From positions 1 through 64,000 of the IMG/VR virus record IMGVR_UViG_3300017917_000723: DNA of 64,000 nucleotides. One strand, 5' to 3'. The notes beneath the pieces were generated by a model, which was given only the letters and a program-made list of their open reading frames with translations, was not told the origin of the DNA and did not search any database. This DNA comes from a virus. This document shows, one piece after another, positions 28,403 to 43,429 of the stretch (positions are counted from its first letter, which is position 1; every line of letters starts with the position of its first letter). The translations under genes and the position numbers were made by a program.

Positions 28403-29161
28403 TCAACCAGTAATCCAAGTGTAACCGGAACCGCCAGGAACTAATTTCATCAAATCTTCAACTAATTTGTCCATCTCGGCTTGGGCTTCTGTTTTAAGTG
28501 CGGCACCGTTTAGACTGCTTCCGCCCTGTGGACCTGCTATCTGTGCAAACTTCTCACGTGCCTGACCTAGCATCATTTTGCAGTTTGCTAAAGCGTAATC
28601 TTTAATCCACTGTCCAGAGTAGACATCATCTATAATAGCAAAATCCGGTTTGCTGTTATAGACCATAAGCATGACGCTTTCTTCACCTCTTGGACGTTGC
28701 TGAACAATAAGTTTGTGTGTTTGAGGATGCCATGTAAAATTGATATATGAGCCAAACATTTTTCCTACTAGCTCTTGATACTGTGCAAACAGTTCATAGG
28801 TCAATAATCCGCCCATATTCGTAGAACTTAAAAGATAGGTATTAGTATAGGCTAAGTTGAACGGTTCAAACACTGTACCACCTGTACCGTTACCCGTTCT
28901 AGAACCAACACTTCTACGGAAAATTTGGCGAACCTGTTGTATTTCTTTAGGTAGAATATACTCGTTTTGGCTTTCTTGTAGTGTTAAAAATACATAACTT
29001 TCTTCTACGGCATTATCGGATCTTTGTCGGAAAACCGCTAGAGCACGATTTAGGGCTGTTTCGTAGTGTTGGGGATCTAGTTCTACGTCAATCATACCGT
29101 CACCTAGCATGGTGCGGCAATAGTCGTAAACTGACTGGCGGGCTTGGTCGTTTGTACTCAT
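28403..29161 (-). CDS. 13: neck protein gp13
   Basis: 252-residue protein with the layout of aquatic T4-like gp13: an N-terminal SVYDYCRTMLGDGMIDVELDPQHYETALNRAL, EYILPKEIQQVRQIFRR, a beta-rich centre (FTWHPQTHKLIVQQ) and QWIKDYALANCKMMLGQAREKF. gp13 with gp14 forms the collar that closes the portal after packaging. It is divergent from gp14, with GATAAATA 5 nt before its ATG. The assignment rests on pattern and on adjacency to gp14 and gp15. Confidence 0.75.
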   Translation of the reverse strand: MSTNDQARQSVYDYCRTMLGDGMIDVELDPQHYETALNRALAVFRQRSDNAVEESYVFLTLQESQNEYILPKEIQQVRQIFRRSVGSRTGNGTGGTVFEPFNLAYTNTYLLSSTNMGGLLTYELFAQYQELVGKMFGSYINFTWHPQTHKLIVQQRPRGEESVMLMVYNSKPDFAIIDDVYSGQWIKDYALANCKMMLGQAREKFAQIAGPQGGSSLNGAALKTEAQAEMDKLVEDLMKLVPGGSGYTWITG

Positions 29162-29166
29162 ACTAC

Positions 29167-29174
29167 TATTTATC
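29167..29174 (-). promoter_or_regulatory. late promoter GATAAATA, 5 nt from gp13 ATG
   Basis: One of a divergent pair in the gap between gp13 and gp14; no Shine-Dalgarno sequence in the 5-nt spacer. Confidence 0.65.
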
Positions 29175-29179
29175 GTAGC

Positions 29180-29187
29180 GGTAAATA
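29180..29187 (+). promoter_or_regulatory. late promoter GGTAAATA before gp14
   Basis: Lies 7 nt before the preferred gp14 ATG (29195) and 1 nt before an earlier in-frame ATG (29189). It is the only promoter-like motif I noticed ahead of the long plus-strand operon to 38320. Confidence 0.58.
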
Positions 29188-29194
29188 TATGACT

Positions 29195-30589
29195 ATGCCA
29201 AGACTTTCGCTATACCGCCCAGAAAAGGGCAACGACTACAAATTTATCGATAAAAATATCTGGGAAATGTTTCAGGTTGGCGGTACTGACGTTTTTGTAC
29301 ACAAATATTTAGGCCCAAACACTTCTGTGCAGGGCAACACACCTAGCACTCCTGAATATACTGGCGGAGATGATCCTTTTAAGATACAAGATTTGTTATT
29401 CTTAGAAAATCGAGATCGAAAATATGATCCAGATGTTTATATTCTTAGAGGAGTTTATAACTTACAGGATATTGATTTTAATCTAAGTCAATTTGGACTA
29501 TTTTTACAAAATGATACAGTGTTTATGACATTTCATATTAATGATACTGTAGAAAAACTCGGCCGTAAGATTATTGCAGGAGATGTTATCGAACTTCCGC
29601 ACCTAAAAGACGAATATGCCCTGAATGATTTTAAGTATGCTCTAAAAAGATACTATGTGATAGAAGAAGTTAGTCGAGCTGCGGAAGGATTTTCTGTAAC
29701 ATGGTATCCCCATTTATATAGAGCGAAGTGTAAACCGTTAGTTGATAGTCAAGAATACAAACAAATACTCGACGGAATCGCAAATTCTGATTCTGACAAA
29801 GGCACATATAATTCTGCTATTACATATTATCCCGGAGATATTATCACCGGACCAGATGGTAAAAAGTACGAAGTGATACAAGAAGTTACCGGTGTTGCAC
29901 CTCCTGACACAACATATTATCAGCTTGCAGATACTCTTAGAGATATCATTAGTACCTATAACAAAGAGATGGAAATCACTCAGGCTGTACTTAATCAAGC
30001 CGAGGCCGATGCACCTAAAAGTGGTTACGACACTAGCAAATATTGGACCTTACAACGTTCCGACGATGGTACAGCAGAATTGGCTACGACCGATGCTAGC
30101 CAAGTTACTGTTGATGCTGCTACACAGGCAACTGATATCGATGGAAACTTATTATATGATAATAACGGAGATCCGATATATGTAGGTCAAACAGCTAGTT
30201 CTGTTTCTATGCCCGTAGATGGAGATGGTTATAATGGATATCTAACTGCTGACGGTTTACCGCCGAACGGTGCACCTTTTACAGCAGGATTGGCATTTCC
30301 AATTAATCCTAGCACAGGACAATTCTGTTTGAGAACAGACTACTTACCTAATAGATTGTTTAGATATAACGGTAGTAGATGGGTTAAATTCGAAGATAAT
30401 GTACGTATGACAATGAGCAACTTAGGTGAAAGCGATGTCGGAACTGGTGATACTTTTGCCGGTAAGGAAGTTCGTAAGACACAGAAAACAACATTTATTA
30501 ACAATACTAATGTTGATACGATCGACGGACATACTACTCAAGAAAAACAAAGCCTTAGTAAGGCTCTTAGACCACAGGCAGACGAATAA
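29195..30589 (+). CDS. 14: neck protein gp14 with C-terminal extension
   Basis: 464-residue protein, longer than T4 gp14 (256 aa). The core reads VFVHKYLGP, LQDIDFNLSQFGLFLQNDTVFMTF, IIAGDVIELPHLKD and FSVTWYPHLYRAKCKPL, comparable to T4's SNFGMQVQDEVTL and GDLIYFP. The remaining half is an extension with a Trp-type block (GQFCLRTDYLPNRLFRYNGSRW). It forms the neck with gp13. The start MPRLSLYRPEKG is chosen over ATG 29189 or an earlier ATG. TAATG overlap couples it to gp15. Confidence 0.82.
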   Translation: MPRLSLYRPEKGNDYKFIDKNIWEMFQVGGTDVFVHKYLGPNTSVQGNTPSTPEYTGGDDPFKIQDLLFLENRDRKYDPDVYILRGVYNLQDIDFNLSQFGLFLQNDTVFMTFHINDTVEKLGRKIIAGDVIELPHLKDEYALNDFKYALKRYYVIEEVSRAAEGFSVTWYPHLYRAKCKPLVDSQEYKQILDGIANSDSDKGTYNSAITYYPGDIITGPDGKKYEVIQEVTGVAPPDTTYYQLADTLRDIISTYNKEMEITQAVLNQAEADAPKSGYDTSKYWTLQRSDDGTAELATTDASQVTVDAATQATDIDGNLLYDNNGDPIYVGQTASSVSMPVDGDGYNGYLTADGLPPNGAPFTAGLAFPINPSTGQFCLRTDYLPNRLFRYNGSRWVKFEDNVRMTMSNLGESDVGTGDTFAGKEVRKTQKTTFINNTNVDTIDGHTTQEKQSLSKALRPQADE

Positions 30590-32109
30590 TGGATTACTTT
30601 TACGACGGTCAGATAAGAAGATATGTCACACAGTTTATGCGTGTGTTTATCGGTTTTAAGTGGAAGGCCGGTGACGGTGCAGAAACTACAGTTCCTGTTA
30701 TGTACGGAGACATGACTCGTCAAGTAGCGGCATTAATTAAAGAAAATTCTGAAAACAAAATGCCTAGTGTACCTCGCATAGCCTGTTATATCACAGGTCT
30801 TGAAATGGCTACAGATCGATTAGCAGATCCAACATTCGTTAGTAAAGTTCATATTAGAGAACGTAGATATACAGATGCAGGAGGAACTAGAGACTATCAG
30901 AACGTCCAAGGCGGAAATTATACAGTTGAAAGACTAATGCCTACGCCGTTTAAATTAACCATGAAGGCCGATATCTGGACTTCAAACACTGATCAGAAAT
31001 TACAGTTACTAGAACAAATATTAGTTTTGTTTAATCCTAGTTTAGAATTACAAACCACAGACAATTACATAGACTGGACTAGTCTTAGCGCCATGTACCT
31101 AACTACAACAAATTTTACCAGTAGAACAATACCTGCAGGAGCAGAAAGTGAAATTGATGTTTGTAGTTTAGAATTTGAAATGCCTATATGGATTACTCCT
31201 CCAGCTAAGGTCAAGAAGTTAGGCATAGTACAAAGTGTTATTTCTAATGTATTCTCAGAAACAGGTGAGGTTGTAAATCTAGACGACCTAGTCTATAACA
31301 GAAGAACAGGATCATTTAGTACTACTTCTAATAGATATCGAGTATTATTGTTTAAGTCAAATACCGGTAACCTTACAGATAACTTATATGATCTAACATT
31401 AGTTAATCCCGACTCTGCTGTTCTAGCATTAGGGTTATCTCAAAAATCTGTTAAGAACGGCGAACCGATAGCATGGGAAAATATATTAGAAGTTCAAGGC
31501 GGTTACCAGCCTGGCAGCGAAGTTTGGTTTAAGAAGGAAGACGGGTCAGAGATTATCGGAACTTTCGTAATTAATTCTCTAGATAGTAGTATTTTAACAG
31601 TAACCTTAGATCCAGATACGTATCCAGTAAATACCGATATATCTAGCAATATAGAAACAAGAGGAACTGTTGATGCTATCATAGATCCTTACAAATATAA
31701 TCCTTTAGAAGTTTATGGTACACACGCTAACATCCCAGTCGGGCTTCGTTTCTTAATGTTAGACGATGTTAATAACAGCATCAATAGAGACGGATATATA
31801 GAATATCCCTCTAATCCAGCAGATAGTACCAGTGTTCCGTATAGAGGTCCTCAAGCATGGAGAGAACCAAGCAATAACGATAGTTCTTGGGAAAACCAAG
31901 ACGGAACCGATCCAATAATTCTAGCAAATTCTATAGTAGAATGGAACGGCACACAGTGGAATACTATTTGGAATCCTGCAGACCACACGGAAACTGTCTA
32001 TATCCAAAATATCCGTACAGGCATCAAATATAAGTGGGACGGAGAACAGTGGCTCAAAGCCTTTGAAGGCGAGTACGGGCCAGGACAGTGGAACTTTAAA
32101 CTAGTCTAA
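30589..32109 (+). CDS. 15: tail sheath stabiliser/terminator gp15 with C-terminal extension
   Basis: 506 residues (T4 gp15: 272). The N-terminus DYFYDGQIRRYVTQFMRVFIGF parallels T4's GYFYNSSFRRYATLMGDLF. VPVMYGDMTRQ, MPTPFKLTMKADIWTSN, QLLEQILVLFNPSLEL and EFEMPIWITPPAKVKKLG also match. It caps the contracted tail and joins it to the neck. The last 240 residues are added and include IVEWNGTQWNTIW and KYKWDGEQW, the WNG-type blocks of the fibres. It follows gp14 in the same transcript. Confidence 0.88.
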   Translation: MDYFYDGQIRRYVTQFMRVFIGFKWKAGDGAETTVPVMYGDMTRQVAALIKENSENKMPSVPRIACYITGLEMATDRLADPTFVSKVHIRERRYTDAGGTRDYQNVQGGNYTVERLMPTPFKLTMKADIWTSNTDQKLQLLEQILVLFNPSLELQTTDNYIDWTSLSAMYLTTTNFTSRTIPAGAESEIDVCSLEFEMPIWITPPAKVKKLGIVQSVISNVFSETGEVVNLDDLVYNRRTGSFSTTSNRYRVLLFKSNTGNLTDNLYDLTLVNPDSAVLALGLSQKSVKNGEPIAWENILEVQGGYQPGSEVWFKKEDGSEIIGTFVINSLDSSILTVTLDPDTYPVNTDISSNIETRGTVDAIIDPYKYNPLEVYGTHANIPVGLRFLMLDDVNNSINRDGYIEYPSNPADSTSVPYRGPQAWREPSNNDSSWENQDGTDPIILANSIVEWNGTQWNTIWNPADHTETVYIQNIRTGIKYKWDGEQWLKAFEGEYGPGQWNFKLV

Positions 32110-32122
32110 GCTAAGTAAAGGC

Positions 32123-32509
32123 ATGCAGCAGCGTGCCGGCTTATTATTCCTAGCAAAAAACACAGGAAGAGTCCTATTAATTTTAGAGGACTCTCGATGG
32201 ACTGTACCTACTTTTCCTAGAAAAGGTGCGCTCATAGATGATGCTATAGATCTTTTAAAAAATTATTCGCAAGGAAGGATATTGCCTATAGAACTTTATC
32301 TTTCCGAAGATCGTGGTTTTGAATACGGTACATACGTTTGCGTAGTTGAAGAAGAATTTTTAACCCTAGCGGCCGACACAATTTGTTGGTCTGGGTTAGA
32401 TTATCTGCCCAAACAGCTACATACTGGATTAAAAATCACACTGAATAATCAGATTATTAGAACTAAAATTGAAACAATAATGGAGTTAGAAAAAGATGCT
32501 TCAAGCTAA
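32123..32509 (+). CDS. Nudix-like protein lacking the catalytic box
   Basis: 128-residue protein. It starts QRAGLLFLAKNTGRVLLILEDSRWTVPTF, the strand pattern of Nudix hydrolases, but the expected GG...E..REL.EE.G box is replaced by RKGALIDDAIDLLKNYSQGR. It is therefore a probable non-catalytic Nudix fold, perhaps a binding or assembly subunit. It lies 13 nt after gp15 and overlaps the next gene. Confidence 0.68.
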   Translation: MQQRAGLLFLAKNTGRVLLILEDSRWTVPTFPRKGALIDDAIDLLKNYSQGRILPIELYLSEDRGFEYGTYVCVVEEEFLTLAADTICWSGLDYLPKQLHTGLKITLNNQIIRTKIETIMELEKDASS

Positions 32510-32753
32510 TCAAAGATTTCAAGAAGATGTTAAACGATATACCGAGGCTATTAATGATATGCCCGACAGTCAGGGAAAAATCGAAGCTCAAAAACTTCTT
32601 AATGATCTTATATACGAAGTAAAAAACATGGACAATATGTTTATGGATATGGTGTATTCAAAACAGCTACCTTCTCTCGGAGCAGAAATTAGAGATCGGA
32701 TAACTGATATCAGAAAAAAGTTAGATAAAAAAATAGCAAGACAGTCTGTATGA
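32496..32753 (+). CDS. small helical hypothetical protein
   Basis: 85-residue, almost entirely helical and charged protein (RFQEDVKRYTEAINDM, AEIRDRITDIRKKLDKKI), likely a coiled coil. It overlaps the Nudix-like gene by 14 nt and the halogenase start by ATGA, so all three are coupled. No recognised family. Confidence 0.72.
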   Translation: MLQANQRFQEDVKRYTEAINDMPDSQGKIEAQKLLNDLIYEVKNMDNMFMDMVYSKQLPSLGAEIRDRITDIRKKLDKKIARQSV

Positions 32754-34219
32754 TAAGAAGAATTAAAAATTTAGTAATCTTAGGAGGTGGCACATCTGCA
32801 TGGTTATCTGCTGCCTATATGAGAAGACATTTTCCAGATCTAAGAATTTCGGTGGTCGATAAAGAAGTTAGTACTCCTGTCGGTGTCGGTGAAGGAACTC
32901 TATTAAATTTCAAAACGTTCATGGAAAACTGCGGGTTTCAGGTAGACGATTGGTTTCCTAAAATTGATGCCACATACAAAGCAGGTATTTTATTTCCGAA
33001 TTGGAAAAAGAAAGGATTAACAGTTTGGCATCCCTTTAAGATGAATCCTTTAATGTATGAAAATGTTAACCTGTTTGATCTATGGAGCTCTAATCAAGAC
33101 TTAGACTTCGCGAACTATGGCACAACAATGTATGATATTACTGTTAATAGAAATAAAATAGATCTCTCGGAGAATTACGGATTTCATGTTGATTGTTTAA
33201 AATTAGTAAATTATATAAAAGAAAAATTAGGAAATTCTGTAGAACTAATAAATTCCGAAATGGTTGAAGTTATTAGAGATGAAGACCAGCATATCACTGA
33301 ACTGATATTAAAAAATAATCGGATAATTAAAGGAGATTTATTTTTTGATTGCACAGGATTTAAATCTTTGTTAAACGAATCTCCAGCGAGAGTAGATTTA
33401 AAAAATAGACTTTTCTGCGATACAGCTATTGCAGGACATGTTCCTTACGACGATCGCAAAACAGAACTAAGACCTTATGTTATTTCAGAAGCGGTTGAAT
33501 GTGGTTGGATATGGAATATCCCAACAAGGAAACGTATTGGGTCAGGATTAGTTTTTAATCGTAGCATAACAGATATTGAAGAAGCTAAGGATATATTTGT
33601 AAAGCACTGGCAGAATAGAATTTCCAAAGAAAATTTAAAAGTTATAGACTGGACTCCTTTTTATAACGAAAACTTTTGGCATGAGAATGTGATATCGATT
33701 GGCCTAAGTGCAGGATTTATAGAACCTTTAGAAAGCACAGGCATCGCCCTTATTATGGAGGGAATATATCAAGCTGCTCAACGCATCAGAGGATATAAAT
33801 TCGAAGACCTAGATATCGAAGTGTATAACAAAATCATGAAATGCTTCTTTGAAGAAAGTATAGATTTTGTAGGTATGCACTATTCTGTAACTGAACGGGA
33901 AGAACCGTTTTGGAAATTTGTTAAAGAGAATTCTAAGATTTCTCAGAGACAGCAATTCTATATAGATCAATTAAAAGATCCATCTCAAGCAGTTCCATAT
34001 CAAGGTACAAATACAAACTTCTTCTGCGGAGAAAATTGGTCAATTTGGTTGATACAATTAGGGTGGAATCCGGCTCCTAGAAATGTGTTAGTTCCCGAAG
34101 AGCAGGCCAGAGAAATACTAATTAGCTACCACGATAGAAATGAAAAATTTAGACATGTATGGTCTAGAGATCATGTTGGCGAAATAGAAAGATTAGAAAA
34201 TTTTTATAATTTGGAATAA
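32750..34219 (+). CDS. flavin-dependent tryptophan-type halogenase
   Basis: 489-residue FADH2-dependent halogenase. GGGTSAW at residues 12-18 is the FAD site, GVGEGTLLNF at 45-54 fits the family, Lys77 (TYKAGI) matches the catalytic lysine of PrnA, WIWNIP at 253-258 is the WxWxIP halogenase hallmark, and Glu328 in EPLESTG matches the catalytic glutamate. All key residues are present, so it should be active. The natural substrate may be tryptophan, a Trp in a protein, or another ring. It starts a tailoring-enzyme block inside a late operon. Confidence 0.93.
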   Translation: MIRRIKNLVILGGGTSAWLSAAYMRRHFPDLRISVVDKEVSTPVGVGEGTLLNFKTFMENCGFQVDDWFPKIDATYKAGILFPNWKKKGLTVWHPFKMNPLMYENVNLFDLWSSNQDLDFANYGTTMYDITVNRNKIDLSENYGFHVDCLKLVNYIKEKLGNSVELINSEMVEVIRDEDQHITELILKNNRIIKGDLFFDCTGFKSLLNESPARVDLKNRLFCDTAIAGHVPYDDRKTELRPYVISEAVECGWIWNIPTRKRIGSGLVFNRSITDIEEAKDIFVKHWQNRISKENLKVIDWTPFYNENFWHENVISIGLSAGFIEPLESTGIALIMEGIYQAAQRIRGYKFEDLDIEVYNKIMKCFFEESIDFVGMHYSVTEREEPFWKFVKENSKISQRQQFYIDQLKDPSQAVPYQGTNTNFFCGENWSIWLIQLGWNPAPRNVLVPEEQAREILISYHDRNEKFRHVWSRDHVGEIERLENFYNLE

Positions 34220-34222
34220 TAT

Positions 34223-34978
34223 ATGCAATTAAAATCTTCTTACTATTATTTTCAGAGTGCAATTCCTAAAGAAATTTGCCGAAGGATAATAGACCTAGGA
34301 TTAGAAAAACTCAACGACTACAAAAAAACCGGAAAACGCATTGATGCTGTAACATTCAATGACAAACAAAAGGATGCTTTACCGGATAGCGTTCCTGCTG
34401 CGGACTTAACCAAAGAAGAATTAAAAAAGAAAAACGTTGATTTGTTTTACGAAAGAGACAGTAAGGTTGCTTGGTTGAATGAAAAATGGTTGTATGATAT
34501 GATACATCCGTATGTTCATGAAGCCAACGCGAGAGCAGGGTGGAATTGGCAATGGGATTACTCTGAGCAATTTCAATTCACGATCTATGAACCGGGCGGA
34601 TTTTACAGTTGGCATTGCGATGGCCCTAGCGACCATAATGGAATCTTTAAAAGATATATTTACGGAGTGACTCCTAAACCTTTAAAATCCGACGGTAGGA
34701 TACCAGAAGGATATGCTGCCGACGATAATATGATTGGAAAGATTAGAAAACTAAGTTTAACAATTAATTTAAACGAACCCGGAGAATACGAAGGTGGAGA
34801 ATTAAAATTTGATCTTGGAGATCACAATGACGGAAAGAAGATTGTAGTCTGTGAAGAAATAAAACCTCAAGGCAGCATAGTAGTATTTCCTAGTTTCTTA
34901 CCTCACTGTGTTGCGCCGGTAACAAAAGGAACTAGGTATAGTTTAGTACTCTGGACATTAGGAAATCCGTATAAATGA
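34223..34978 (+). CDS. 2-oxoglutarate/Fe(II) oxygenase (PKHD type)
   Basis: 251-residue dioxygenase. Metal ligands are His131 and Asp133 (SWHCDG) and His228 (LPHCVAPV). Arg238 (GTRYSL) is placed to bind 2-oxoglutarate. LSLTINLN...YEGGEL is the standard jelly-roll strand pair. Hydroxylation or other C-H oxidation of a peptide or small molecule is expected. It lies 3 nt after the halogenase, and ATGA-coupled to the next oxygenase. Confidence 0.9.
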   Translation: MQLKSSYYYFQSAIPKEICRRIIDLGLEKLNDYKKTGKRIDAVTFNDKQKDALPDSVPAADLTKEELKKKNVDLFYERDSKVAWLNEKWLYDMIHPYVHEANARAGWNWQWDYSEQFQFTIYEPGGFYSWHCDGPSDHNGIFKRYIYGVTPKPLKSDGRIPEGYAADDNMIGKIRKLSLTINLNEPGEYEGGELKFDLGDHNDGKKIVVCEEIKPQGSIVVFPSFLPHCVAPVTKGTRYSLVLWTLGNPYK

Positions 34979-35631
34979 ACAATATTTCAAATATTCAAAA
35001 CTTTTTCAACAAAAACGGTTTTGTTGTTATCAAAAATTTTATAGATAGAAATATCGTTAATATTTTTTATCAATATACTATATTAAAAGTACAGAGTGTT
35101 GATTATAAAAAATTAAATTATCCTGATCATTATAACAAAGACTGGGACGGAAAGTTTGGAGACCCTCAAATTCCAAACTCATATAACTGTTATGGGGATA
35201 CTCTAATGGATAGTCTTTTGATTTCGTCTTTAAACCAGATGGAACAATACACTGGCATGTCCTTAGTACCTACATATAGTTATTGGAGATTCTATCAGCT
35301 AGGCGATGTTCTTAAAAAGCATCGAGATAGAAATAGTTGTGAAATTTCTGCTACATTATGCTTAGGTTATAATGCCGAAAACATGAAAGATTTAAATTAT
35401 TCTTGGCCGATCTGTGTTGAAAGCACTTTAGATCCTTCTAAAGATTTTACAGAAATAAATTTAGAACCCGGCGACATGATCATTTACAAAGGCTGTGAAT
35501 TGTTGCATTGGAGAGATGCGTATCAGGGATTAAATCACGCACAGGTATTTTTGCATTATAATAGAAAAGATAATCCCAATAATAATATTTTAGACGGCAG
35601 AAGCATATTGAGTATTCCTCATGGATTTTAA
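34975..35631 (+). CDS. 2-oxoglutarate/Fe(II) oxygenase-like protein
   Basis: 218-residue protein with FFNKNGFVVIKNFID at the N-terminus, as in many 2OG enzymes. The ligand pair is His116-x-Asp118 (KKHRDR), with a distal His178 (ELLHWRDAY) after LEPGDMIIYKG. An Arg at 197 may bind 2OG. It differs clearly from the neighbouring oxygenases, so the block was not built by simple tandem duplication. Coupled by ATGA upstream and an 11-nt overlap downstream. Confidence 0.8.
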   Translation: MNNISNIQNFFNKNGFVVIKNFIDRNIVNIFYQYTILKVQSVDYKKLNYPDHYNKDWDGKFGDPQIPNSYNCYGDTLMDSLLISSLNQMEQYTGMSLVPTYSYWRFYQLGDVLKKHRDRNSCEISATLCLGYNAENMKDLNYSWPICVESTLDPSKDFTEINLEPGDMIIYKGCELLHWRDAYQGLNHAQVFLHYNRKDNPNNNILDGRSILSIPHGF

Positions 35632-36244
35632 TAATTTTTCTATTCAGACGATTTTTCCTACTGCTATTTTAACAAATAACATCAGTAGAAAATTTACGGA
35701 AGAAGAATACAATTACATTAATAATTGTCTAGAGACTCGAATCTCCAACGTAGGAAATACAACTTCTTTAGAAAGTTATGTGTTAGACAATCCTGCACTA
35801 GCTGATCTAAAGAAATCAATTGAAGCCTGTATAGATTATTATAAAAAAGAAATCCTATGTCCTAAAGATGATATAGAAATTTATATCACACAATCATGGT
35901 TAAATGTTTCGGAAAAAGGACAACATCATCATATACACAATCACACAAATAGTTTTCTTTCCGGAGTTTTTTACATCCAGACAGATGATAAAAATAATAA
36001 AATAACATTTCACCGAGACAGATACGATATGATAAAGTTAATTCCAAAAGAATTCAACGAATATAATTCAAAATCTTGGTGGCTACCTGCAGAGGTTGGA
36101 AATATAATTATATTTCCGTCTCACTTACAACATGATGTTTCTATTAACGAAAGCAACGAACCTAGGATTAGTTTATCCTTTAATACATTTATAAGAGGAA
36201 CTGTTGGAGAGGCTGAGTCCCTAACTAAGATAGTACTGCGATGA
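35621..36244 (+). CDS. putative 2-oxoglutarate/Fe(II) oxygenase, TIGR02466-like
   Basis: 207-residue protein with IQTIFPTAI at the start, SWLNVSEKGQHHHIHNHTNSFLSGVFYI in the middle (His cluster 102-108) and FPSHLQHDV (His171) plus RISLSF (Arg182) at the end, the pattern of the TIGR02466 family of putative 2OG oxygenases. It is a third distinct oxygenase subfamily in this operon. Substrate unknown. Confidence 0.82.
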   Translation: MDFNNFSIQTIFPTAILTNNISRKFTEEEYNYINNCLETRISNVGNTTSLESYVLDNPALADLKKSIEACIDYYKKEILCPKDDIEIYITQSWLNVSEKGQHHHIHNHTNSFLSGVFYIQTDDKNNKITFHRDRYDMIKLIPKEFNEYNSKSWWLPAEVGNIIIFPSHLQHDVSINESNEPRISLSFNTFIRGTVGEAESLTKIVLR

Positions 36245-36801
36245 ATTTAAATTTAGATAATTATATAAAAGTTTATAATAGACTTTCTCTGTCTTTTTGT
36301 GATAACATAGTTGAAGAATTAGAAAAGTCATCTTGGGAAAAACATAGTTTCTACGTTAACTCAGAAGGAAACTATTATTCAACCGATACAGATTTTAAAG
36401 TTACATGGAATCCCCTTAAAGTCCAAGAAATTTTACATCAAGCTGTATGGGACAGTTTGTATCAATATGTTGTACAGGATATAAATTTTTCATGGTTTCA
36501 CGGATGGCAACAGTTTACTGGGGTTAGGTTCAATCGTTATGAGACTAATACAGAAATGCATAATCATTGCGATCACATACACGATATTTTTGACGGTGAG
36601 AATAAAGGAGTTCCAGTATTAAGTGTCCTCGGAATACTAAATGATGATTTCGAAGGCGGTGATTTAATATTTTTTGAAGATAAAAAAATTGAAACAAAGA
36701 AAGGAGATATAATTGTATTTCCTTCAAACTTTTTATTTCCTCATAAAGTTTCTCCAGTAACTAAAAATGTAAGGTATTCATTTGTTTCATGGGCATGGTA
36801 A
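36241..36801 (+). CDS. 2-oxoglutarate/Fe(II) oxygenase (PKHD type)
   Basis: 186-residue dioxygenase. Ligands are His109-x-Asp111 (NHCDHIH) and His168 (FPHKVSPV), with Arg178 for 2OG. LNDDFEGGDLIFFEDK is the core. It is closer to the 34223 enzyme than to the other two. ATGA overlap with the upstream gene; the carbamoyltransferase starts 1 nt after its stop. Confidence 0.87.
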   Translation: MNLNLDNYIKVYNRLSLSFCDNIVEELEKSSWEKHSFYVNSEGNYYSTDTDFKVTWNPLKVQEILHQAVWDSLYQYVVQDINFSWFHGWQQFTGVRFNRYETNTEMHNHCDHIHDIFDGENKGVPVLSVLGILNDDFEGGDLIFFEDKKIETKKGDIIVFPSNFLFPHKVSPVTKNVRYSFVSWAW

Positions 36802-36802
36802 T

Positions 36803-38320
36803 ATGAAAATTTTAGGGTTAATCATTGGACACGATGCATCTGCATGTGTTATAGAAGATGGAAAAATTGTTTACTATAGAATGGCCGAACGACTATCTAG
36901 AGTAAAACATGACTATAATATATTTCCTTGTTTACAAGATCTAGTAGAAGAAAATTTTGTCGAGTTTGATACTATAATTGTTTCTTACTTTTTAGATAGA
37001 GCCAAAGATGAATTTATAAAAAATCAAGATTTTATAAACGAAAATTTTTCATTTAATAATTTAAAATTAATCAAAGATCAACATCATCTGCATCATGCGT
37101 TTGGTGCTTTATATTCATCTGGATATAACGATGCTGTAGTTATAGTGTTAGACGGTTCGGGTAGTATTAATTATAATCTAGTAGAAGGACGGGAATCTCG
37201 AGAAATTGAAAGTATATACTATATTGATTTATCTCAAAAATCAGTTGATACAATTTATAAACACTATCACTCCGATATAGAAGAAAGGATAGTAAACAAT
37301 AATATTGAAATTAGCAACGATATTAGCGTTGGTTGGGCCTTTGAAAGATGTGCTGAGAATATAGGTTTTGATATTTGGTCAGCTGGAAAAGTTATGGGAT
37401 TATCTCAGTATCTTGGGCACGAGCAGTTATTAGAAGATCAATGGAAGAACAAAGTATTTGCAGCATATGAATGTCAAACTGCTACGGAAGCTAGAGCAGA
37501 ATTTTTACTATATAAGGCAATAACTTCAACAAGCTGTAAAAATATTGTAATTACCGGTGGATATGGTTTAAATTGTTTGGCTAATTTTAAATACAGCGAG
37601 CTATTACATCGAAACTATAATCTTTATATAGATCCTATATGCTTTGATGCTGGAATTTCAATAGGTGCTGCATTCAAAGAATATGTAGAAGAAACAAACT
37701 ATTACTTTCCAAAACATATAAAAAATGTTTTTATAGGCAACAAAAAATCTTACGATCTTAAAAATTATAATGCAGTTGATACTACAGAAGAATACATTTT
37801 ACAGCTAATAGAAAATCAAGAACCTGTGGCTGTGTACTACGGAAATTCTGAGGCTGGTCAACGAGCATTAGGCCATAGAAGTATATTATTCGACCCAAGG
37901 AATCCTAACGGTAAAGATCTAATGAACACAATAAAAAACAGAGAATCTTTTAGACCTTTTGGATGTAGTGTTCTAATCGACCTAGCATTTGAATGGTTTA
38001 GAAGTGATACAATAACATCCTCTCCGTTTATGACCTATGCTGTACCAGTCAGAGAAAAATATAAAAAATACATTCCTGCAGTCGTTCATATAGATGGAAC
38101 TTCTAGGATACAAACATTAGATCCTCAGAATAATGAGTATCTATATTCTTTAGTTGAGAAGTTTTATAAGAAAACTGGTATTCCGTTGTTAGGAAATACC
38201 AGTTTGAATTTAGCGGGAGAACCGTTAGTTGAAACTTTAGAAGATGCTGTTAACGTATTACATAACAGTGATTTAAAATATCTATATCTTCCCAAAGAAC
38301 AAAAACTTATAACAGTTTAA
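36803..38320 (+). CDS. carbamoyltransferase (NodU/TobZ/CmcH family)
   Basis: 505-residue enzyme that transfers a carbamoyl group from carbamoyl phosphate to a hydroxyl group. N-terminal GHDASACVIEDG and the His cluster DQHHLHHAFGAL (94-98) form the Kae1-like active site, and VVIVLDGSGS follows. The C-terminal domain has EAGQRALGHRSILFDPRNP, RESFRPFGCSVL and LLGNTSLNLAGEP, all family hallmarks. The ATG at 36803 is chosen over an upstream in-frame TTG. In antibiotic and Nod-factor pathways such enzymes act after hydroxylases, which fits the four oxygenases just upstream. Confidence 0.93.
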   Translation: MKILGLIIGHDASACVIEDGKIVYYRMAERLSRVKHDYNIFPCLQDLVEENFVEFDTIIVSYFLDRAKDEFIKNQDFINENFSFNNLKLIKDQHHLHHAFGALYSSGYNDAVVIVLDGSGSINYNLVEGRESREIESIYYIDLSQKSVDTIYKHYHSDIEERIVNNNIEISNDISVGWAFERCAENIGFDIWSAGKVMGLSQYLGHEQLLEDQWKNKVFAAYECQTATEARAEFLLYKAITSTSCKNIVITGGYGLNCLANFKYSELLHRNYNLYIDPICFDAGISIGAAFKEYVEETNYYFPKHIKNVFIGNKKSYDLKNYNAVDTTEEYILQLIENQEPVAVYYGNSEAGQRALGHRSILFDPRNPNGKDLMNTIKNRESFRPFGCSVLIDLAFEWFRSDTITSSPFMTYAVPVREKYKKYIPAVVHIDGTSRIQTLDPQNNEYLYSLVEKFYKKTGIPLLGNTSLNLAGEPLVETLEDAVNVLHNSDLKYLYLPKEQKLITV

Positions 38321-39360
38321 GCACCGCGTACAAATATATGTACGAATTGTATGGCGTGTCCTTCACCGTTTACTTGATTAGTACCGTTAGCATTAAATCC
38401 GGGATAATGACATTCGGATCCTGTGCTAAACCCGCTGTATTGTCCGGTGCCGCCCGCGCCACCGCCACCGGCTCCGCTGTGTCCGCTCCAGGTCCATGTA
38501 AACAAACGACGCCAGTCGTTGGCACCGCCATAATCATTGTCGGACCATGAAGTAATCGTTCCTTGAGAGGATGCAACTCCTCCTGTACACATAGGTCCAA
38601 AATATCTAGTACAGTTCACTGAAGTTGCGCTCTCTGTTGCACTTGTGCTTGAGTTATCAACGCTATTATTGCCGTTAAAATCGCTCCAGTGGAAGTTACC
38701 AGATTGGCCGGTCCAGTAATAACTATCTCCTAATTCTGGTCTGTTAATAATCATTCTAACGTTGGTCCAGGCGCTGCCGCCGCAGGCTGCACGAACCCAA
38801 TCTCTAGGCATATATCTAGGATTTCTATTACTGGTTGGAAAATTTTGAGCTGTGCCGATTCCGTTATTAAATGGTACATCTACCGAGCTGAAGCCTAAAT
38901 TGTTTGATCTTAAGCCAGTGGCAAAATCACCGTTACCAGCATTTAAATGCCAAGTATTATATCCTGCAACAGTTGCACCTTGGCGTCCTTCTCTGCCTAC
39001 ACCAACTAACATCCAGCCTCCGGTGAATCCTCCTACAGATGTAGTCATGTCGCAGAAGATTCTATAGGCTGTTTGTCCTGGTGGTTTAATCCAATAATCA
39101 CCGCTGATGTTTGTTCCTGTTAAGGTTTTAATTGCTGCTGCGTTTGGTGCTGCTAGTGCTTCGGTTGATCCGTCTAGACCAGCAACGTTTCCGTTTTCAA
39201 GATTAATCCAGTTTGTGCCGTTGTAATATTCAGTAATGTTAAATGTTGTATTAAAACGAATCATTCCAGCAGCAGGACTTCCTGGACGCTGTGCTGTAGT
39301 ACCGTTTGGTATTCTAATAAATCCTGTGTCGTTAATTGTTGTATTTTTTAATGTTGCCAT
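38317..39360 (-). CDS. adhesin with fibrinogen-like tip, copy 1
   Basis: 347-residue probable receptor-binding protein. Residues 1-55 are an anchor module (MATLKNTTINDTGF, GTTAQRP, YYNGTNW) shared with two neighbours. From about residue 86, SGDYWIKPPGQTAYRIFCDMTT followed by GGWMLVG is the start of a fibrinogen-like globular domain (the Y.I.P.G....CDM...GGW pattern). The C-terminus has a Gly-rich loop and GEGHAIQFVHIFVRG. It ends tail to tail with the carbamoyltransferase gene (4-nt overlap). Confidence 0.78.
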   Translation of the reverse strand: MATLKNTTINDTGFIRIPNGTTAQRPGSPAAGMIRFNTTFNITEYYNGTNWINLENGNVAGLDGSTEALAAPNAAAIKTLTGTNISGDYWIKPPGQTAYRIFCDMTTSVGGFTGGWMLVGVGREGRQGATVAGYNTWHLNAGNGDFATGLRSNNLGFSSVDVPFNNGIGTAQNFPTSNRNPRYMPRDWVRAACGGSAWTNVRMIINRPELGDSYYWTGQSGNFHWSDFNGNNSVDNSSTSATESATSVNCTRYFGPMCTGGVASSQGTITSWSDNDYGGANDWRRLFTWTWSGHSGAGGGGAGGTGQYSGFSTGSECHYPGFNANGTNQVNGEGHAIQFVHIFVRGA

Positions 39361-39361
39361 A

Positions 39362-40345
39362 TTATCTTACCCAAGTTGTGTAACCAACACAGTCGTATGC
39401 GTTTCCGTCGATGTGATACCATCCTTCATAAGCACCTTCAGTTGCGCCGTGGCCTATGTATGTACCTGTAGTAGGATCTCCGCTAGATCCAGCTGTTGCT
39501 GCGGCGCCAACTGTAATTTGATTAGAATTAGATGTATAACCACCGTTAAGTCTATCAGCTTTTACACTGTCTAGTATAAAATAATTTGATGAACTCTGGG
39601 TACTGCCGTATGCTCTAACACTTTGTTCTCGTCTTGTTACAGCAGTTAGTCTGGCACTACCAGTAACATCTTGGCGAATATCCCAAATCCATACTCCGCA
39701 CATTCCCAGATTTCCTGTAGATCCTGCAGTTGGCCAACTATAAAGATCAGCTCTTATAGAACCGGCGCCACCTGCTGCGGTTGCCTGCGAAGTTCCCGTA
39801 CCACCAAATAAGAAAATTCTAGCTTGGTCAAAATTTAAATTGTTAATCATAGGTCCTATGATGTAATCAAAATTAGGACTTATTACTGCTCCTACAGCAG
39901 ATGACAACAACGGGCCACTCTGACCCGGACGATCTAATTCGTAGAGTTGGTTTTGTCTAGATGTTCCGCTTGGAATAGTAGTATCTGCAGAATGATTAGA
40001 AGCTACCATCATCCAACCACCACCGTGAAAATCCATGTCACAATACAGTTGTTGAGCTGTTGCAAATCCCGAAGGTTGTATCCAATAAAGTCCGCTTGCT
40101 GCTGTAGGATTTGCTGCTAAAATATGTAAAGCACTTCTAGCTGGATTAGTTGACGTAGATCCTAGATCTACATTTCTCTTAACAGAATTAACTATCCAAG
40201 CTGTTCCGTTATATACTTCAATAACACCTGTGACAGAATTACGTCTAAGCTGTCCTACAGCGGGAGTGGGTCTTTCCGCGGTAGTGCCGACGGGTGCTTG
40301 TAAAAATCCTGTATCATTAACTGTAAGACTTGATAGTGTAGCCAT
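39362..40345 (-). CDS. adhesin with fibrinogen-like tip, copy 2
   Basis: 327-residue relative of the adjacent gene. It has the same anchor module (MATLSSLTVNDTGF, GTTAERP, VYNGTAW), then SGLYWIQPSG near 84-93, YCDMDFHGGGWMMVAS at 101-116 (fibrinogen-like), and a divergent remainder. The strong divergence of the tip compared with the anchor suggests selection for different receptors. GGTAAATA lies 20 nt before the ATG. Confidence 0.78.
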   Translation of the reverse strand: MATLSSLTVNDTGFLQAPVGTTAERPTPAVGQLRRNSVTGVIEVYNGTAWIVNSVKRNVDLGSTSTNPARSALHILAANPTAASGLYWIQPSGFATAQQLYCDMDFHGGGWMMVASNHSADTTIPSGTSRQNQLYELDRPGQSGPLLSSAVGAVISPNFDYIIGPMINNLNFDQARIFLFGGTGTSQATAAGGAGSIRADLYSWPTAGSTGNLGMCGVWIWDIRQDVTGSARLTAVTRREQSVRAYGSTQSSSNYFILDSVKADRLNGGYTSNSNQITVGAAATAGSSGDPTTGTYIGHGATEGAYEGWYHIDGNAYDCVGYTTWVR

Positions 40346-40373: not shown

Positions 40374-40551
40374 ATTTTTGCAGAGGGCAAGACTGCGACA
40401 TCATTCTCGCTTTTAAAGGCATAAAGCATAGGCATTTTGAGCACTGTTTTGTTAATTTTACAAAATTTTCGCATTTTTTACAGATCTCAATCCTACGCAC
40501 ATATTCCTGATAGTTACTGTCTGAGGTTGGGATCATCGCAGCAATTGTCAT
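40369..40551 (-). CDS. small zinc-ribbon protein
   Basis: 60-residue protein with CKKC near residues 24-27, CSKCLC near 37-42 and a final SCPLQKW, giving two or three Cys pairs for a single zinc site. It overlaps the end of the upstream 125-aa gene by 38 nt in another frame. The N-terminal 10 residues may not be translated if a later start is used. Such ribbons occur near phage fibre genes; function unknown. Confidence 0.62.
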   Translation of the reverse strand: MTIAAMIPTSDSNYQEYVRRIEICKKCENFVKLTKQCSKCLCFMPLKARMMSQSCPLQKW

Positions 40552-40891
40552 CCATAGAAACCCATGATTCTGTTGGCTCGTCCCACAGATAAGGTTTTTT
40601 TGGATCCGGATAAGGAATAGGTGGTTCCCATCTCCATATATCTCCTGACTTATTTAGAACCCACGAAGGAAACGGAGAAGGATCATAGAATTTATCTGCA
40701 CCGGCATCGTAGATAGATCCGGGGCTTGCTGGGTTTCCTCTAAATCCTACGTCTGTGTCGTTCTCTCTTTTCCATGTTTCAAGCCACTGAGCTGGGTCTC
40801 CGAAAGTTCCGTTTTGTATAACTGTCTCGTCTTGAACAACTATAACGTTTTCTACTATGTTATCTTTGTTAATTTTAGCAAAATATTTCAT
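40514..40891 (-). CDS. fibre-associated hypothetical protein, 125 aa
   Basis: 125-residue protein starting MKYFAKINKDNIVENVIVVQDE, a motif common in small proteins encoded beside phage tail fibres. A Trp/Pro-rich second half follows (WRWEPPIPYPDPKKPYLW). The start at 40891 is favoured by AGGA about 10 nt upstream; an in-frame ATG 17 codons earlier lies within the oxygenase gene. It may be a fibre-tip attachment or assembly protein. Its stop overlaps the zinc-ribbon ORF. Confidence 0.75.
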   Translation of the reverse strand: MKYFAKINKDNIVENVIVVQDETVIQNGTFGDPAQWLETWKRENDTDVGFRGNPASPGSIYDAGADKFYDPSPFPSWVLNKSGDIWRWEPPIPYPDPKKPYLWDEPTESWVSMDDNCCDDPNLRQ

Positions 40892-41529
40892 TTTTTGTAT
40901 TCCTCTCCTGTGGGCGAATAATTTGGTAAAAAATTGCACCATCCGGTAATAATATATTTAGTTGTAGTTGGGCTGGTAATTCCTCGGTGAAAATGTGTCC
41001 AGTAAGGAGGCCAAATTACAACACTTCCTGCCCTAGCTTCAGTAACTAAATTTTGGAATTTAAACTCAGTTCCGCCATCTGGTACATCGTTTAGATATAC
41101 CATCCAAACTAACATTCTAGTTACAAACTGGGGAATTGGATTAGGAGTTTCGCAGTGCCAAGCGTAGTATCCTTCTCCGGGAGTATATCGTTGTATGTTA
41201 AAGCCCGGCGATACCTGCCACGGGGCTATTCCATCTATGCCAGATATTCCAAATTCATCGGTGAAAAAACTGTAGATCTTTTTATACTCTTCGATTTCGC
41301 TGCTTAGGGAAATCATAAACTCTCTTAGAGATTCATACCAAGCATGTCCAGGAACAAAAAAATCGGGATTTAGTCCAATTTCTGTATCCTGTTTCCAGGA
41401 CGGATTATTTTTTGATAATCCGCCCGTCGAACCTCTGATATGTAAATGAGGGTGAGACTCGAATAGTTCTATTAGTTTAGAACATAATTCTGGCCGTAGT
41501 GCGTTTTCTTTGTAATGTATAAAATTCAT
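40888..41529 (-). CDS. 2-oxoglutarate/Fe(II) oxygenase within the adhesin cluster
   Basis: 213-residue dioxygenase with His125-x-Glu127 (AWHCET), MVYLNDVPDGGTEF as the jelly-roll core, and WTHFHRGI supplying the distal His. The first acidic ligand is Glu rather than the usual Asp, and Lys191 stands where Arg usually binds 2OG. It is embedded between fibre genes on the strand opposite the oxygenase operon. The 4-nt overlap with the 125-aa gene suggests they act together, perhaps on an adhesin. Confidence 0.85.
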   Translation of the reverse strand: MNFIHYKENALRPELCSKLIELFESHPHLHIRGSTGGLSKNNPSWKQDTEIGLNPDFFVPGHAWYESLREFMISLSSEIEEYKKIYSFFTDEFGISGIDGIAPWQVSPGFNIQRYTPGEGYYAWHCETPNPIPQFVTRMLVWMVYLNDVPDGGTEFKFQNLVTEARAGSVVIWPPYWTHFHRGITSPTTTKYIITGWCNFLPNYSPTGEEYKK

Positions 41530-41593: not shown

Positions 41594-43429
41594 TTAAAAG
41601 TTCGGTCTCATTCTAACAGGATATCTGATGATAGCTACACCGTTACCGCCTGCTCCGCTGTTAGTGCTGTTTGGAGCCCATCCTGCGCCACCGCCACCAC
41701 CACCTAGTCCATTACCACCAGGCTGTCCTTTTGGATGTCCTGCTGAGCCACCACCGCCTGCGCCTCCAATACCAGTTCTTCCAGGACCGCCGTTGGAACA
41801 AGTTGATCCTGCACCTCCACCTGCATAGTATTGTAGACTTCCGGAAATTGTATAAGCACGTCCCTGACCGCCGTCGCCGCCGTCAGTGGTTGTTCCGTCA
41901 ACTCCCACGGTTCCTGCACCGCCACCGCCACCGCCACCCCATTCTGGGCCGCTATTATTTCCGTTGCCGCCGGCATTACCAAAACCGCCATTGGCGCTCT
42001 GTGGTTGATCTGCGCCGCCTGTTGGCGCTGTGTAAGGGTTGGCACCACCGCCACCGGAGCCGCCTGCGTTTCCTCTACCAGAGTTAACACCTGAGCCACC
42101 GCCACCGCCACCACCACCACGTGCAGTAAGTCCAAAGAATGTTGTGTTACCCCCATTATTACCAACTGCTGCTGTGCCTGAAGGTCTTGCTGCTCCTCCC
42201 GAGCCGATAGTCACAGGATATGTTCCTGGAGACACCTGCCAGGTATACTCGTGGATTAATCCGCCAGCGCCGCCGCCACCGTTTGAACAGTTGTTTTGTG
42301 CTGCGCCACCGCTGCCTCCACCGCCAACCAATAATATCTCTGCTGCTCTGGTAAATCCGCTAGATACTGTAAATGTTCCTGAATTCCAGAAAGTATGAAC
42401 TCTAAAGATCATACCATCTTCTTCATAATCGACAATTCTGTCACCGCCAGTGGCTACAACAGAATTTTCTAAATGATCCCAATATGTTCCATCATTTGTT
42501 TCTACTTGGCCGTTAACATATCTAAGTTGGCCGGCTGCTGCAGAAAGTCCATTAGGGTTAGTATATCTAATAATAACAATACCAGGGCCGCCGTTTCCGC
42601 CTCTGGCATTGTAGGAGCCATTATCAAATGAGCCACCACCGCCACCACCGCCTGTGGCAAAGCGTCCGTCTTGTCCGGCATCATTGCCGCCGCCGCCGTG
42701 GCCGCCGCCACCCCAGCCTCCCATACCACCTTGGCCTCGACCAAAAGCAGTAGATCCGCCACCGCCACCGGCATAGTAAGTTGGTTTTCCGCTGATGCTA
42801 TATCTTACACCGATTCCTCCGTGTCCACCCTGGCCGTCATTATTTGCCACACATCCTGGGCTTGAAGTTATAAATGGAACAATATTTCCGTTACCGCCAG
42901 CACCGGCAGAGCCACCACCTGCATATCCCTGTGCAGTAGTACCGCAAGATCCAGATCCAGAAGTATATGTTATTCCCGACGAAGTAGTACTACCCCCTTG
43001 GCTACCACCTCCTGCACTTAAAATTGTAGGTCCTGAACCAAATGTTGTTGCTGATCCTGCTGAACCGCCCGACGGAGAATAAGGTGAAGTTTGAGGACTA
43101 CCGTTCGCTGCTGGTCCAGTACCGCCTGCACCGATCGTAATCGGATATGTTGTTCCTGGAGATACTGGATAGCTGGCTGCTACCCTAGGACTTTCTGGAC
43201 CGTAATATAATACTGAGCCGGCTGAGCCTCCGTTAGCATGTCGTTGACCACCAGCTCCGCCTCCACCAACCATCAATAACTGAATACTAGTTACTCCAGT
43301 CGGTGCTGTCCATGATCCGCTGGCTGTAAAAATTTCAACTACGTCTCCCGGTCTTTGAGCATTAGTAGACCCTACAGGGAGTTGTAAAGCATCCGTACCT
43401 GAAATCGTAGTATTTTTTAATGTTGCCAT
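41594..43429 (-). CDS. glycine-rich adhesin with two Gly-rich modules
   Basis: 611-residue fibre or adhesin. It starts with the same anchor motif as the fibrinogen-like genes (MATLKNTTISGTD, GSTNAQRPG), then has two glycine-rich domains beginning IQLLMVGGGGAGG near residue 48 and AEILLVGGGGSGG near 365, separated by a GQLRYVNGQVETNDGTYW block. Gly-rich sheets of this kind form receptor-binding tips in several phage fibres. It has very biased Gly codons and complementary low-complexity open frames on the other strand that are not genes. Confidence 0.83.
   Translation of the reverse strand: MATLKNTTISGTDALQLPVGSTNAQRPGDVVEIFTASGSWTAPTGVTSIQLLMVGGGGAGGQRHANGGSAGSVLYYGPESPRVAASYPVSPGTTYPITIGAGGTGPAANGSPQTSPYSPSGGSAGSATTFGSGPTILSAGGGSQGGSTTSSGITYTSGSGSCGTTAQGYAGGGSAGAGGNGNIVPFITSSPGCVANNDGQGGHGGIGVRYSISGKPTYYAGGGGGSTAFGRGQGGMGGWGGGGHGGGGNDAGQDGRFATGGGGGGGSFDNGSYNARGGNGGPGIVIIRYTNPNGLSAAAGQLRYVNGQVETNDGTYWDHLENSVVATGGDRIVDYEEDGMIFRVHTFWNSGTFTVSSGFTRAAEILLVGGGGSGGAAQNNCSNGGGGAGGLIHEYTWQVSPGTYPVTIGSGGAARPSGTAAVGNNGGNTTFFGLTARGGGGGGGGSGVNSGRGNAGGSGGGGANPYTAPTGGADQPQSANGGFGNAGGNGNNSGPEWGGGGGGGAGTVGVDGTTTDGGDGGQGRAYTISGSLQYYAGGGAGSTCSNGGPGRTGIGGAGGGGSAGHPKGQPGGNGLGGGGGGAGWAPNSTNSGAGGNGVAIIRYPVRMRPNF

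Follow-up and report, generated by a model that had tools for sequence, protein, structure and literature searches.

Genes for a flavin-dependent halogenase (HAL) and 2-oxoglutarate (2OG) oxygenases, with or without a carbamoyltransferase gene (CAR), form a recurring combination at phage fibre loci, and not a conserved six-step chain. In the window, that is, the whole 64,000-nucleotide stretch analysed here, these genes occupy a variable AT-rich locus of a T4-like phage, between gp15 (tail-sheath stabiliser) and the fibre genes (Table 1). The explanation that I favour, at roughly even confidence, is that they constitute an exchangeable accessory island which modifies the phage's own tail-fibre adhesins in late infection.

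Table 1. Features of the island, its anchor and the fibre locus.
Feature	Coordinates	Strand	Evidence or remark
HAL, flavin-dependent halogenase, 489 aa	32750..34219	+	PF04820 E 5e-86; phrog_2928; PDB matches Thal, PrnA, RebH, VirX1
OX1, 2OG-Fe(II) oxygenase, 251 aa	34223..34978	+	PF13640 E 9e-14; phrog_61; HxD...H
OX2, 2OG oxygenase, 218 aa	34975..35631	+	no Pfam hit; phrog_2954 E 4e-47; invariant H116, D118, H178
OX3, 2OG-FeII_Oxy_5 oxygenase, 207 aa, HxH...H variant	35621..36244	+	PF13759 E 7e-26; alignment
OX4, 2OG-Fe(II) oxygenase, 186 aa	36241..36801	+	PF13640 E 1e-14; HxD...H
CAR, NodU/TobZ-type O-carbamoyltransferase, 505 aa from ATG 36803	36803..38320	+	PF16861 E 4e-52; PF02543; phrog_1601
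OX5, fifth 2OG oxygenase, within fibre gene array	40888..41529	-	PF13640 E 1.5e-8; HxE...H in alignment
Conserved locus anchor: gp13-like neck protein (-), then gp14-like, gp15, 128-aa and 85-aa genes (+)	28403..32753		phrog_211; PF16724 gp15; synteny
Tail-fibre protein, conserved fibre head; candidate substrate	38317..39360	-	fibre-head HMM, fibre-anchored scan
Tail-fibre protein, fibrinogen_C-like domain; candidate substrate	39362..40345	-	PF00147 E 2e-5
p142, small Pro/Trp-rich fibre-locus protein (phrog_7759), adjoins OX5	40514..40894	-	unsupported as substrate
Glycine-rich fibre adhesin, 30.6% Gly; candidate substrate	41594..43429	-	PF21722 E 1e-42; composition
Glycan cassette: cytidylyltransferase/mannose-6-P isomerase, GT8, FkbM and further methyltransferases; might provide CAR with a sugar	5381..11692	-	

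The six consecutive same-strand genes, in the order HAL-OX1-OX2-OX3-OX4-CAR, were all found where the initial annotation had placed them. They are translationally coupled, as proposed there: neighbouring genes overlap by 4–11 bases or are separated by 1–3 bases. Because the junctions are tight and the start of HAL overlaps the preceding 85-aa gene, the island extends the plus-strand run of gp14, gp15, the 128-aa and the 85-aa genes. Its GC content is 30–37%, whereas most of the flanking sequence lies at 38–52%. Scans for promoters and terminators yielded no more than they did on shuffled sequence. CAR most likely begins at the ATG and not at the TTG with which the longest ORF starts. The count of four oxygenases holds for the coupled run, to which must be added a fifth, OX5, overlooked among the fibre genes; a profile search for PF13640 domains found none elsewhere in the 65-kb record.

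Catalytic residues previously described as intact are indeed conserved. G12–G14, K77, W253/W255/P258 and E328 are invariant across 16 aligned viral halogenases, and HAL displays the sequence hallmarks of the flavin-dependent enzymes (FAD GxGxxG-type motif, WxWxIP, catalytic Lys and Glu). The HxD...H triad announced for at least three oxygenases is present in OX1, OX2 and OX4, while OX5 carries HxE...H and OX3 has HxH...H in its place, invariant in the alignment. In CAR, the His cluster is likewise kept (H94, H95 and H98 are invariant), both the Carbam_trans_N and Carbam_trans_C domains are detected, the former as a partial match (46 bits), and the PDB matches are carbamoyltransferases including TobZ and GdmN. 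OX2 calls for a correction, since its family has been published as 'ferrochelatase'. This label is rejected on the grounds that H116, D118 and H178 are invariant and that the Foldseek matches of the predicted structure (AlphaFold pLDDT 94.7) are nearly all named 2OG oxygenases, the best being a P. putida prolyl hydroxylase (E 7e-10), with no ferrochelatase fold among the 50 matches listed. The OX2 family is a 2OG oxygenase family, so that two ecological results in print have to be read differently. The adjacent order OX1-OX2 is found again in phage Mosig and in locus L002.

Co-occurrence in related genomes was assessed in an anchor-neutral sample of 78 loci retrieved by the fibre head only. 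Genes for 2OG oxygenases were present at 12/12 HAL-bearing loci versus 6/66 HAL-less ones (p = 4e-10), and the tie persisted in the non-redundant set (11/11 versus 6/45, p = 8e-8) and when limited to the OX1–OX5 profiles (p = 5e-5); the comparison set, made of uvsX-centred loci, gave 0/57 within 5 kb. HAL was also found at all three CAR-bearing loci of the sample. Islands containing HAL, 2OG and CAR genes are interleaved with fibre genes in L504, L505 and L508, and a relative whose gp14 and gp15 are 83% and 81% identical to those of the window (G023) harbours at the same locus a HAL (30% identity), a CAR (33%) and 2OG genes. Co-occurrence is thus far above chance, so these genes are not scattered independently, the pattern against which the initial annotation had staked its proposal. 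The fixed, ordered six-gene chain that it envisaged has nevertheless to be abandoned: gene number, order, orientation and alleles vary in every relative examined, and an entire lineage (L028–L045) possesses HAL without 2OG genes. Most CAR loci lack HAL, which occurs at just 5/80 CAR-anchored loci, and CAR is therefore rejected as an obligatory HAL partner.

The amino acid composition of the Gly-rich fibres, the candidate substrate, covaries with the enzymes, within a limited phylogenetic resolution. Pro-Gly per 1000 was 21.3 at HAL loci, 21.2 at 2OG-only loci and 6.6 at loci with neither (n = 18, 16 and 23; p = 2e-7 and 2e-5), that is, about threefold higher with 2OG genes. The corresponding values for His were 20.9, 6.9 and 4.6, an increase seen only with HAL; Trp behaved likewise, less clearly. 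No increase in Pro or His was observed in the control proteins gp15 and the 128-aa protein; structural genes served as the His control, 'other' genes having been dropped because those sets contain His-rich enzymes. Phylogenetic regression gave p = 1e-5 for Pro-Gly on enzymes and 2.5e-4 for His on HAL, or 0.003 and 0.005 with lambda forced to 1, this correction being rough (the fibre tree, built from 80 columns, is poorly resolved). A sign test on supported branches, which comprised only 3–4 independent pairs, was not significant, and in the fibre-anchored subset alone the difference between 2OG-only loci and loci with none was marginal (p = 0.054, n = 6 versus 23). The window's own Gly-rich fibre is unremarkable, with only 11 Pro-Gly per 1000. 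The His enrichment is also found in non-Gly-rich fibres, and could be a lineage effect. These enzyme-linked Pro-Gly and His shifts in Gly-rich fibres are new here. A further caveat is that the loci carrying the enzymes differ in lineage, and possibly also in habitat.

The neighbouring protein p142 was considered as a specific substrate. In a p142-anchored scan, 2OG genes lay within 5 kb of 56/58 family members. This association was lost in the fibre-anchored sample (2OG genes at 5/30 loci with p142 versus 13/48 without, p = 0.91), where HAL and p142 occurred together in 0/12 cases, and p142 was rejected in this role. Its predicted model had no match among solved structures.

Recurrence at the same spot and a fibre make-up that shifts with the enzymes suggest that the phage probably decorates its own fibres. 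The initial annotation had supposed a pre-existing substrate, and the fibre option among those it named gains indirect support from the covariation. The observed part of this model consists of the intact motifs, the coupling to the gp14/gp15 late genes, the recurrence at fibre loci and the composition covariation. The 2OG oxygenases would hydroxylate side chains, Pro before Gly being the leading candidate, in support of which can be cited the nearest fold of OX2, a protein prolyl hydroxylase. HAL, fed with host reduced flavin, might halogenate aromatic or imidazole groups of exposed residues (His/Trp). CAR might cap a hydroxyl, for which a sugar attached to the fibre is the likeliest carrier; sequential action on one residue would not be required. 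The likely outcome would be a changed chemistry and stability of the receptor-binding loops, and an island swap would change them wholesale. Receptors bound by related Gly-rich phage tips are on record (PMC12892980). A more specific version, which I advance only tentatively and hold to be rather doubtful, is a swappable multi-enzyme diversification of receptor-binding polyglycine fibre tips, combining Pro-Gly hydroxylation, His/Trp loop halogenation and a carbamoylated cap. Counting against the fibre model, other accessory genes of cyanophages likewise insert among structural genes (PMC2984593).

Among the alignments listed, that of HAL with Thal-type enzymes ends near query residue 394. The free-tryptophan halogenases (PrnA, RebH, Thal) have C-terminal substrate-binding residues, for instance in the region of PrnA W455. 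I know of no established His-directed flavin-dependent halogenase, and a virion protein halogenated by a phage enzyme would, to my knowledge, be the first of its kind. A peptide-brominating flavin-dependent halogenase is on record (PMC10858898).

The island could instead serve surface-glycan tailoring: together with phage sugar-nucleotide genes, it would build or cap a decorated sugar carried by the virion or by the surface of the infected host (receptor masking). CAR adjoins glycosyltransferases in L424 and L425 and a weakly GT9-like gene in L507, HAL adjoins ADP-heptose-type genes (PfkB kinase, CTP_transf_like, epimerase) in many of L028–L060, the window has its own glycan cassette at 5.4–11.7 kb, and the closest HAL found (56%) belongs to a bacterial locus that also holds glycosyltransferases and a PF13759 oxygenase. 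I nonetheless consider glycan tailoring unlikely, though worth keeping in mind: the window's island is itself devoid of a glycosyltransferase, HAL needs an aromatic or activated substrate and is left unexplained, and so is the Pro-Gly and His covariation of the fibres.

Genes for 2OG oxygenases and halogenases are common in marine phages; their role is unsettled, and the customary label is auxiliary metabolic genes. A host-metabolism reading, proposed in 2010 for cyanophage 2OG genes (PMC3037559), would have the oxygenases consume 2-oxoglutarate and shift the nitrogen or energy status of the host; HAL and CAR would then be unrelated passengers. This is improbable here, as one and the same island beside the fibres keeps distinct 2OG subfamilies along with HAL and CAR, and it gives no reason for the fibre covariation. 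Tailoring of a free small molecule (antibiotic, siderophore, signal) in the infected host suits the enzyme types, and in vitro VirX1 accepts many free heteroaromatics as halogenation substrates (PMC8407142); such tailoring is very improbable given the coupling to virion genes, the repeated placement at fibre loci and the lack, already pointed out in the initial annotation, of any scaffold enzyme seen in the record. Finally, DNA base hypermodification, in which CAR would carbamoylate a hydroxymethyl base made by an oxygenase or hydroxymethylase, as the phage-associated 5-hydroxymethylcytosine carbamoyltransferase might suggest (PMC8670742), is scarcely credible and is rejected: the oxygenases are of PF13640/PF13759 types, and PF00303 (thymidylate synthase/dCMP hydroxymethylase) was absent, with positive controls, from the 65-kb record, G023, G024, G004 and G002, which are fragments, so that this absence is not final.

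If the fibres are the target, 2OG and halogenase genes would pertain to host recognition, not host metabolism, many of those in marine phages would share a purpose, and the long-standing question of viral halogenase targets would reduce to one mass-spectrometry experiment on cultured phages. The gene types and some of their combinations had been described before; the system for modifying the virion, like its substrate, is putative.

Considered one by one, the enzymes resemble characterized ones. HAL shares its superfamily, the catalytic Lys and Glu and a marine phage origin with VirX1, the halogenase of cyanophage Syn10 (Gkotsi 2019, described in PMC8407142; PDB 6qgm), to which it is about 27% identical and for which no partner chain is described. 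CAR has in common with NodU/TobZ O-carbamoyltransferases and the 5hmC carbamoyltransferase (PMC8670742) both Carbam_trans domains and the HHxxH cluster, the dCMP-hydroxymethylase partner of the 5hmC system not being found in the five fragment records searched for PF00303. OX2 shares the fold and HxD...H of prolyl-4-hydroxylase-like enzymes (P. putida P4H-EF-Tu; the viral P4H of PBCV-1, cited in PMC9301287) at only 12% identity, its putative substrate being suggested by the fibre Pro-Gly enrichment. As to combinations, the statement that only single genes of these types are known in aquatic phages was an overstatement: a 2010 tabulation of cyanophage genomes already put a halogenase, a carbamoyltransferase and several 2OG genes together (PMC3037559), and in S-SSM7 two carbamoyltransferase genes lie side by side with 2OG genes and a halogenase gene, the difference from the window being extra sugar-nucleotide genes. 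Similar fibre/neck islands, in which a halogenase gene, a series of 2OG genes or both lie close to fibre and neck genes, exist in cyanophages and pelagiphages (Syn9, S-RIM44, Sf-CH11, S-SSM7, Mosig EXVC030M, HTVC008M); they differ from that of the window in order, number and alleles, HAL being about 25–40% identical, and in Sf-CH11 HAL is flanked by 2OG genes, between fibre genes.

The island of a flavin-dependent halogenase (HAL), four Fe(II)/2OG oxygenases (OX1-OX4) and a NodU/TobZ-type carbamoyltransferase (CAR) is real, coupled and recurrent. The ORF coordinates bear out the initial annotation in placing the six genes almost contiguously on one strand, neighbours overlapping by 4-11 bases or leaving gaps of 1-3. 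The start of HAL overlaps an 85-aa gene, before which come gp14, gp15 and a 128-aa gene in that order; this couples the six genes to the late structural genes. Domain and family profile searches gave strong assignments for all six genes. Alignments showed that the catalytic residues are kept across viral relatives, as expected from the motifs first read in the oxygenases, except that the triad of OX3 is HxH...H, not HxD...H.

Features of the window and of related loci (L-numbers, fetched loci or contigs)
Feature	Location	Strand	Remark
HAL, OX1, OX2, OX3, OX4, CAR, in order, head to tail	32750-38320	+	CAR start most likely at 36803
OX2	34975-35631	+	phrog_2954
OX5, fifth oxygenase, HxE...H	40888-41529	-	among fibres
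Trp/Pro-rich small protein	40514-40894	-	MAHFAxL family
Gly-rich fibre adhesin	41594-43429		PF21722
Glycan cassette	5.4-11.7 kb		
phrog_7084/phrog_17480, example members	L504:11519-12238; L505:8915-9670; L019:2355-3110		
Luciferase-like flavin monooxygenase	L507:11655-12686		PF00296
S-SSM7 SSSM7_124, "denV"	L010:7450-8004		

The window covers most of a 65,250-base record of a T4-like phage, with its markers (gp13-type neck protein, gp15 (PF16724), UvsX, UvsY, terminase, sheath), the terminase having its best match (54%) in PA5oct-like Pseudomonas phages. Positioned between gp15 and the fibre genes, the island has a GC content of 30-37%, against 38-52% in most flanking kilobases, a difference suggesting that it was acquired. 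This interval is variable among relatives: it holds HAL/2OG islands in L019 and L262, CAR but neither HAL nor 2OG genes in L260 and L261, fibres alone in L348, and no comparable genes in many others.

Co-occurrence was assayed in loci retrieved with six different anchors, neighbours being scored by profiles built in this analysis. Of 43 loci of halogenases near HAL, 32 had 2OG genes at a distance of no more than 5 kb, 13 had CAR and 19 had a second HAL; a further 2OG gene was found in 53/54 OX2-anchored loci. In uvsX control loci, 2OG genes were found within 5 kb in 0/57 and anywhere in the locus in 3/80. The fairest test is given by 78 loci retrieved solely by a fibre head, 12 of which contain HAL: 2OG genes were present in 12/12 of these versus 6/66 of those lacking HAL (p = 4e-10), so that the co-occurrence envisaged at the outset is found in related phage genomes. 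CAR occurred in three fibre-head loci, all with HAL (3/3, p = 0.003). The HAL-2OG link held in this set when near-duplicates were dropped (11/11 vs 6/45) and with the OX1-5 profiles alone (8/12 vs 6/66, p = 5e-5), the broader 2OG set being backed by Pfam for 8/10 sampled members and possibly containing a few false members.

The gene combination is kept while order and sequence turn over. In the 280-kb relative G023, gp14 and gp15 are 83% and 81% identical to those of the window; at the same locus, HAL and CAR are 30% and 33% identical, and G023 has another HAL+2OG+CAR island at about 88-95 kb. L504, L505 and L508 carry HAL, CAR and several 2OG genes between fibre genes, in both orientations. 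Such differences in order, orientation and alleles speak against the fixed ordered chain initially proposed, and retention of the combination despite this turnover favours a functional association over a conserved ordered pathway. The HAL/2OG/CAR island of G023 in L507 also contains a luciferase-like flavin monooxygenase, and two families of about 230-280 aa, phrog_7084 and phrog_17480, are recurrent neighbours of halogenase and 2OG genes.

Glycine-rich fibre adhesins are a frequent component of these loci, and their composition was compared among non-redundant loci with HAL (n = 18), with 2OG genes without HAL (n = 16) and with neither (n = 23). Pro-Gly dipeptides per 1000 residues numbered 21.3, 21.2 and 6.6, respectively (p = 2e-7 and 2e-5 versus neither); His, at 20.9, 6.9 and 4.6 per 1000, rose only with HAL (p = 1e-5 versus neither, 1e-3 versus 2OG-only), and Trp stood at 11.4, 4.8 and 7.2. 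Neither the Pro nor the His rise was seen in gp15 or the 128-aa protein. Both effects persisted in loci with a visible gp15 or 128-aa gene (Pro, p = 7e-4; His, p = 0.03) and in phylogenetic regression on fibre heads (p = 1e-5 and 2.5e-4; 0.003 and 0.005 at full phylogenetic weight), for which the tree is weak, with fewer supported independent pairs than a sign test needs. In the fibre-anchored subset alone, 2OG-only versus neither reached just p = 0.054; His is also high in non-Gly-rich fibres of HAL loci, and the window's own Gly-rich fibre is of middling composition. Since many patterns were compared, 22 of them in the main comparison, I trust only the strongest, and take enzyme-fibre covariation for a lead from which a clear experiment follows. 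Also common at fibre loci is the MAHFAxL family of Trp/Pro-rich small proteins, with a conserved KPYASW-like motif; 96% of one clade lie within 5 kb of 2OG genes, and the family occurs in other fibre loci without them.

The island would likely modify the virion. By analogy with the chemistry of known families, the 2OG enzymes would hydroxylate Pro (or other) side chains, HAL would halogenate exposed aromatic or imidazole residues with reduced flavin from the host, and CAR would carbamoylate a hydroxyl. Acceptors of CAR-type enzymes with known function are mostly sugars or other non-protein hydroxyls; the CAR genes of L424 and L425 have glycosyltransferase neighbours, and a glycan cassette is present in the window, so a fibre-linked sugar would be the most likely acceptor. 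Receptor-binding loops of T2-type phages are borne on a polyglycine sandwich in Gly-rich tips (PMC12892980) and structured precursor peptides are substrates of a flavin-dependent brominase (PMC10858898), which provides a precedent for each step, none found on a virion.

OX2 belongs to a "ferrochelatase" family, phrog_2954, treated as an auxiliary metabolic gene (PMC9599517; PMC11561400). HxD...H is invariant in its alignment of 56 sequences, the OX2 structure model is confident (pLDDT 94.7), and P. putida prolyl hydroxylase heads the 50 structure matches listed, which include no ferrochelatase. By motif and modelled fold, phrog_2954 looks like a 2OG oxygenase. The "denV" product of cyanophage S-SSM7, which carries the name DNA endonuclease V, has a match to PF13640 (E 5e-9), and OX4 and OX5 match phrog_2297 ("DNA endonuclease"), likely another misnamed 2OG oxygenase.

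Halogenases also occur in sugar contexts. One lineage (L028, L029, L031, L034-L036, L038, L040, L041, L043-L045) has the order gp13-gp14-gp15-128aa-HAL-HAL, followed by ADP-heptose-type genes where the contig is long enough, with no 2OG genes in the retrieved stretches; here two halogenases are coupled to a sugar-nucleotide pathway. The closest halogenase found to HAL (56% identity) lies with a PF13759 oxygenase in a bacterial surface-glycan region of an Alcaligenaceae MAG (L511, CANCMG010000041.1), a possible source of the phage gene and a hint that the host may be betaproteobacterial.

A 2010 table of cyanophage genes already lists a halogenase, a carbamoyltransferase and several 2OG genes (PMC3037559), and VirX1 of Syn10 has been characterised, its natural substrate being not known (PMC8407142). 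Pairs of 2OG and "ferrochelatase" genes are recorded in pelagiphages (PMC9599517) and have been tied to seasonality (PMC11561400). The literature searched, mostly without subscription papers, yielded no treatment of the whole set as an island for fibre modification, no statistical link of HAL to 2OG genes at fibre loci and no covariation of fibres with enzymes; an earlier description is possible. Phage accessory loci of this kind are already known, and the island is a new variation on them.
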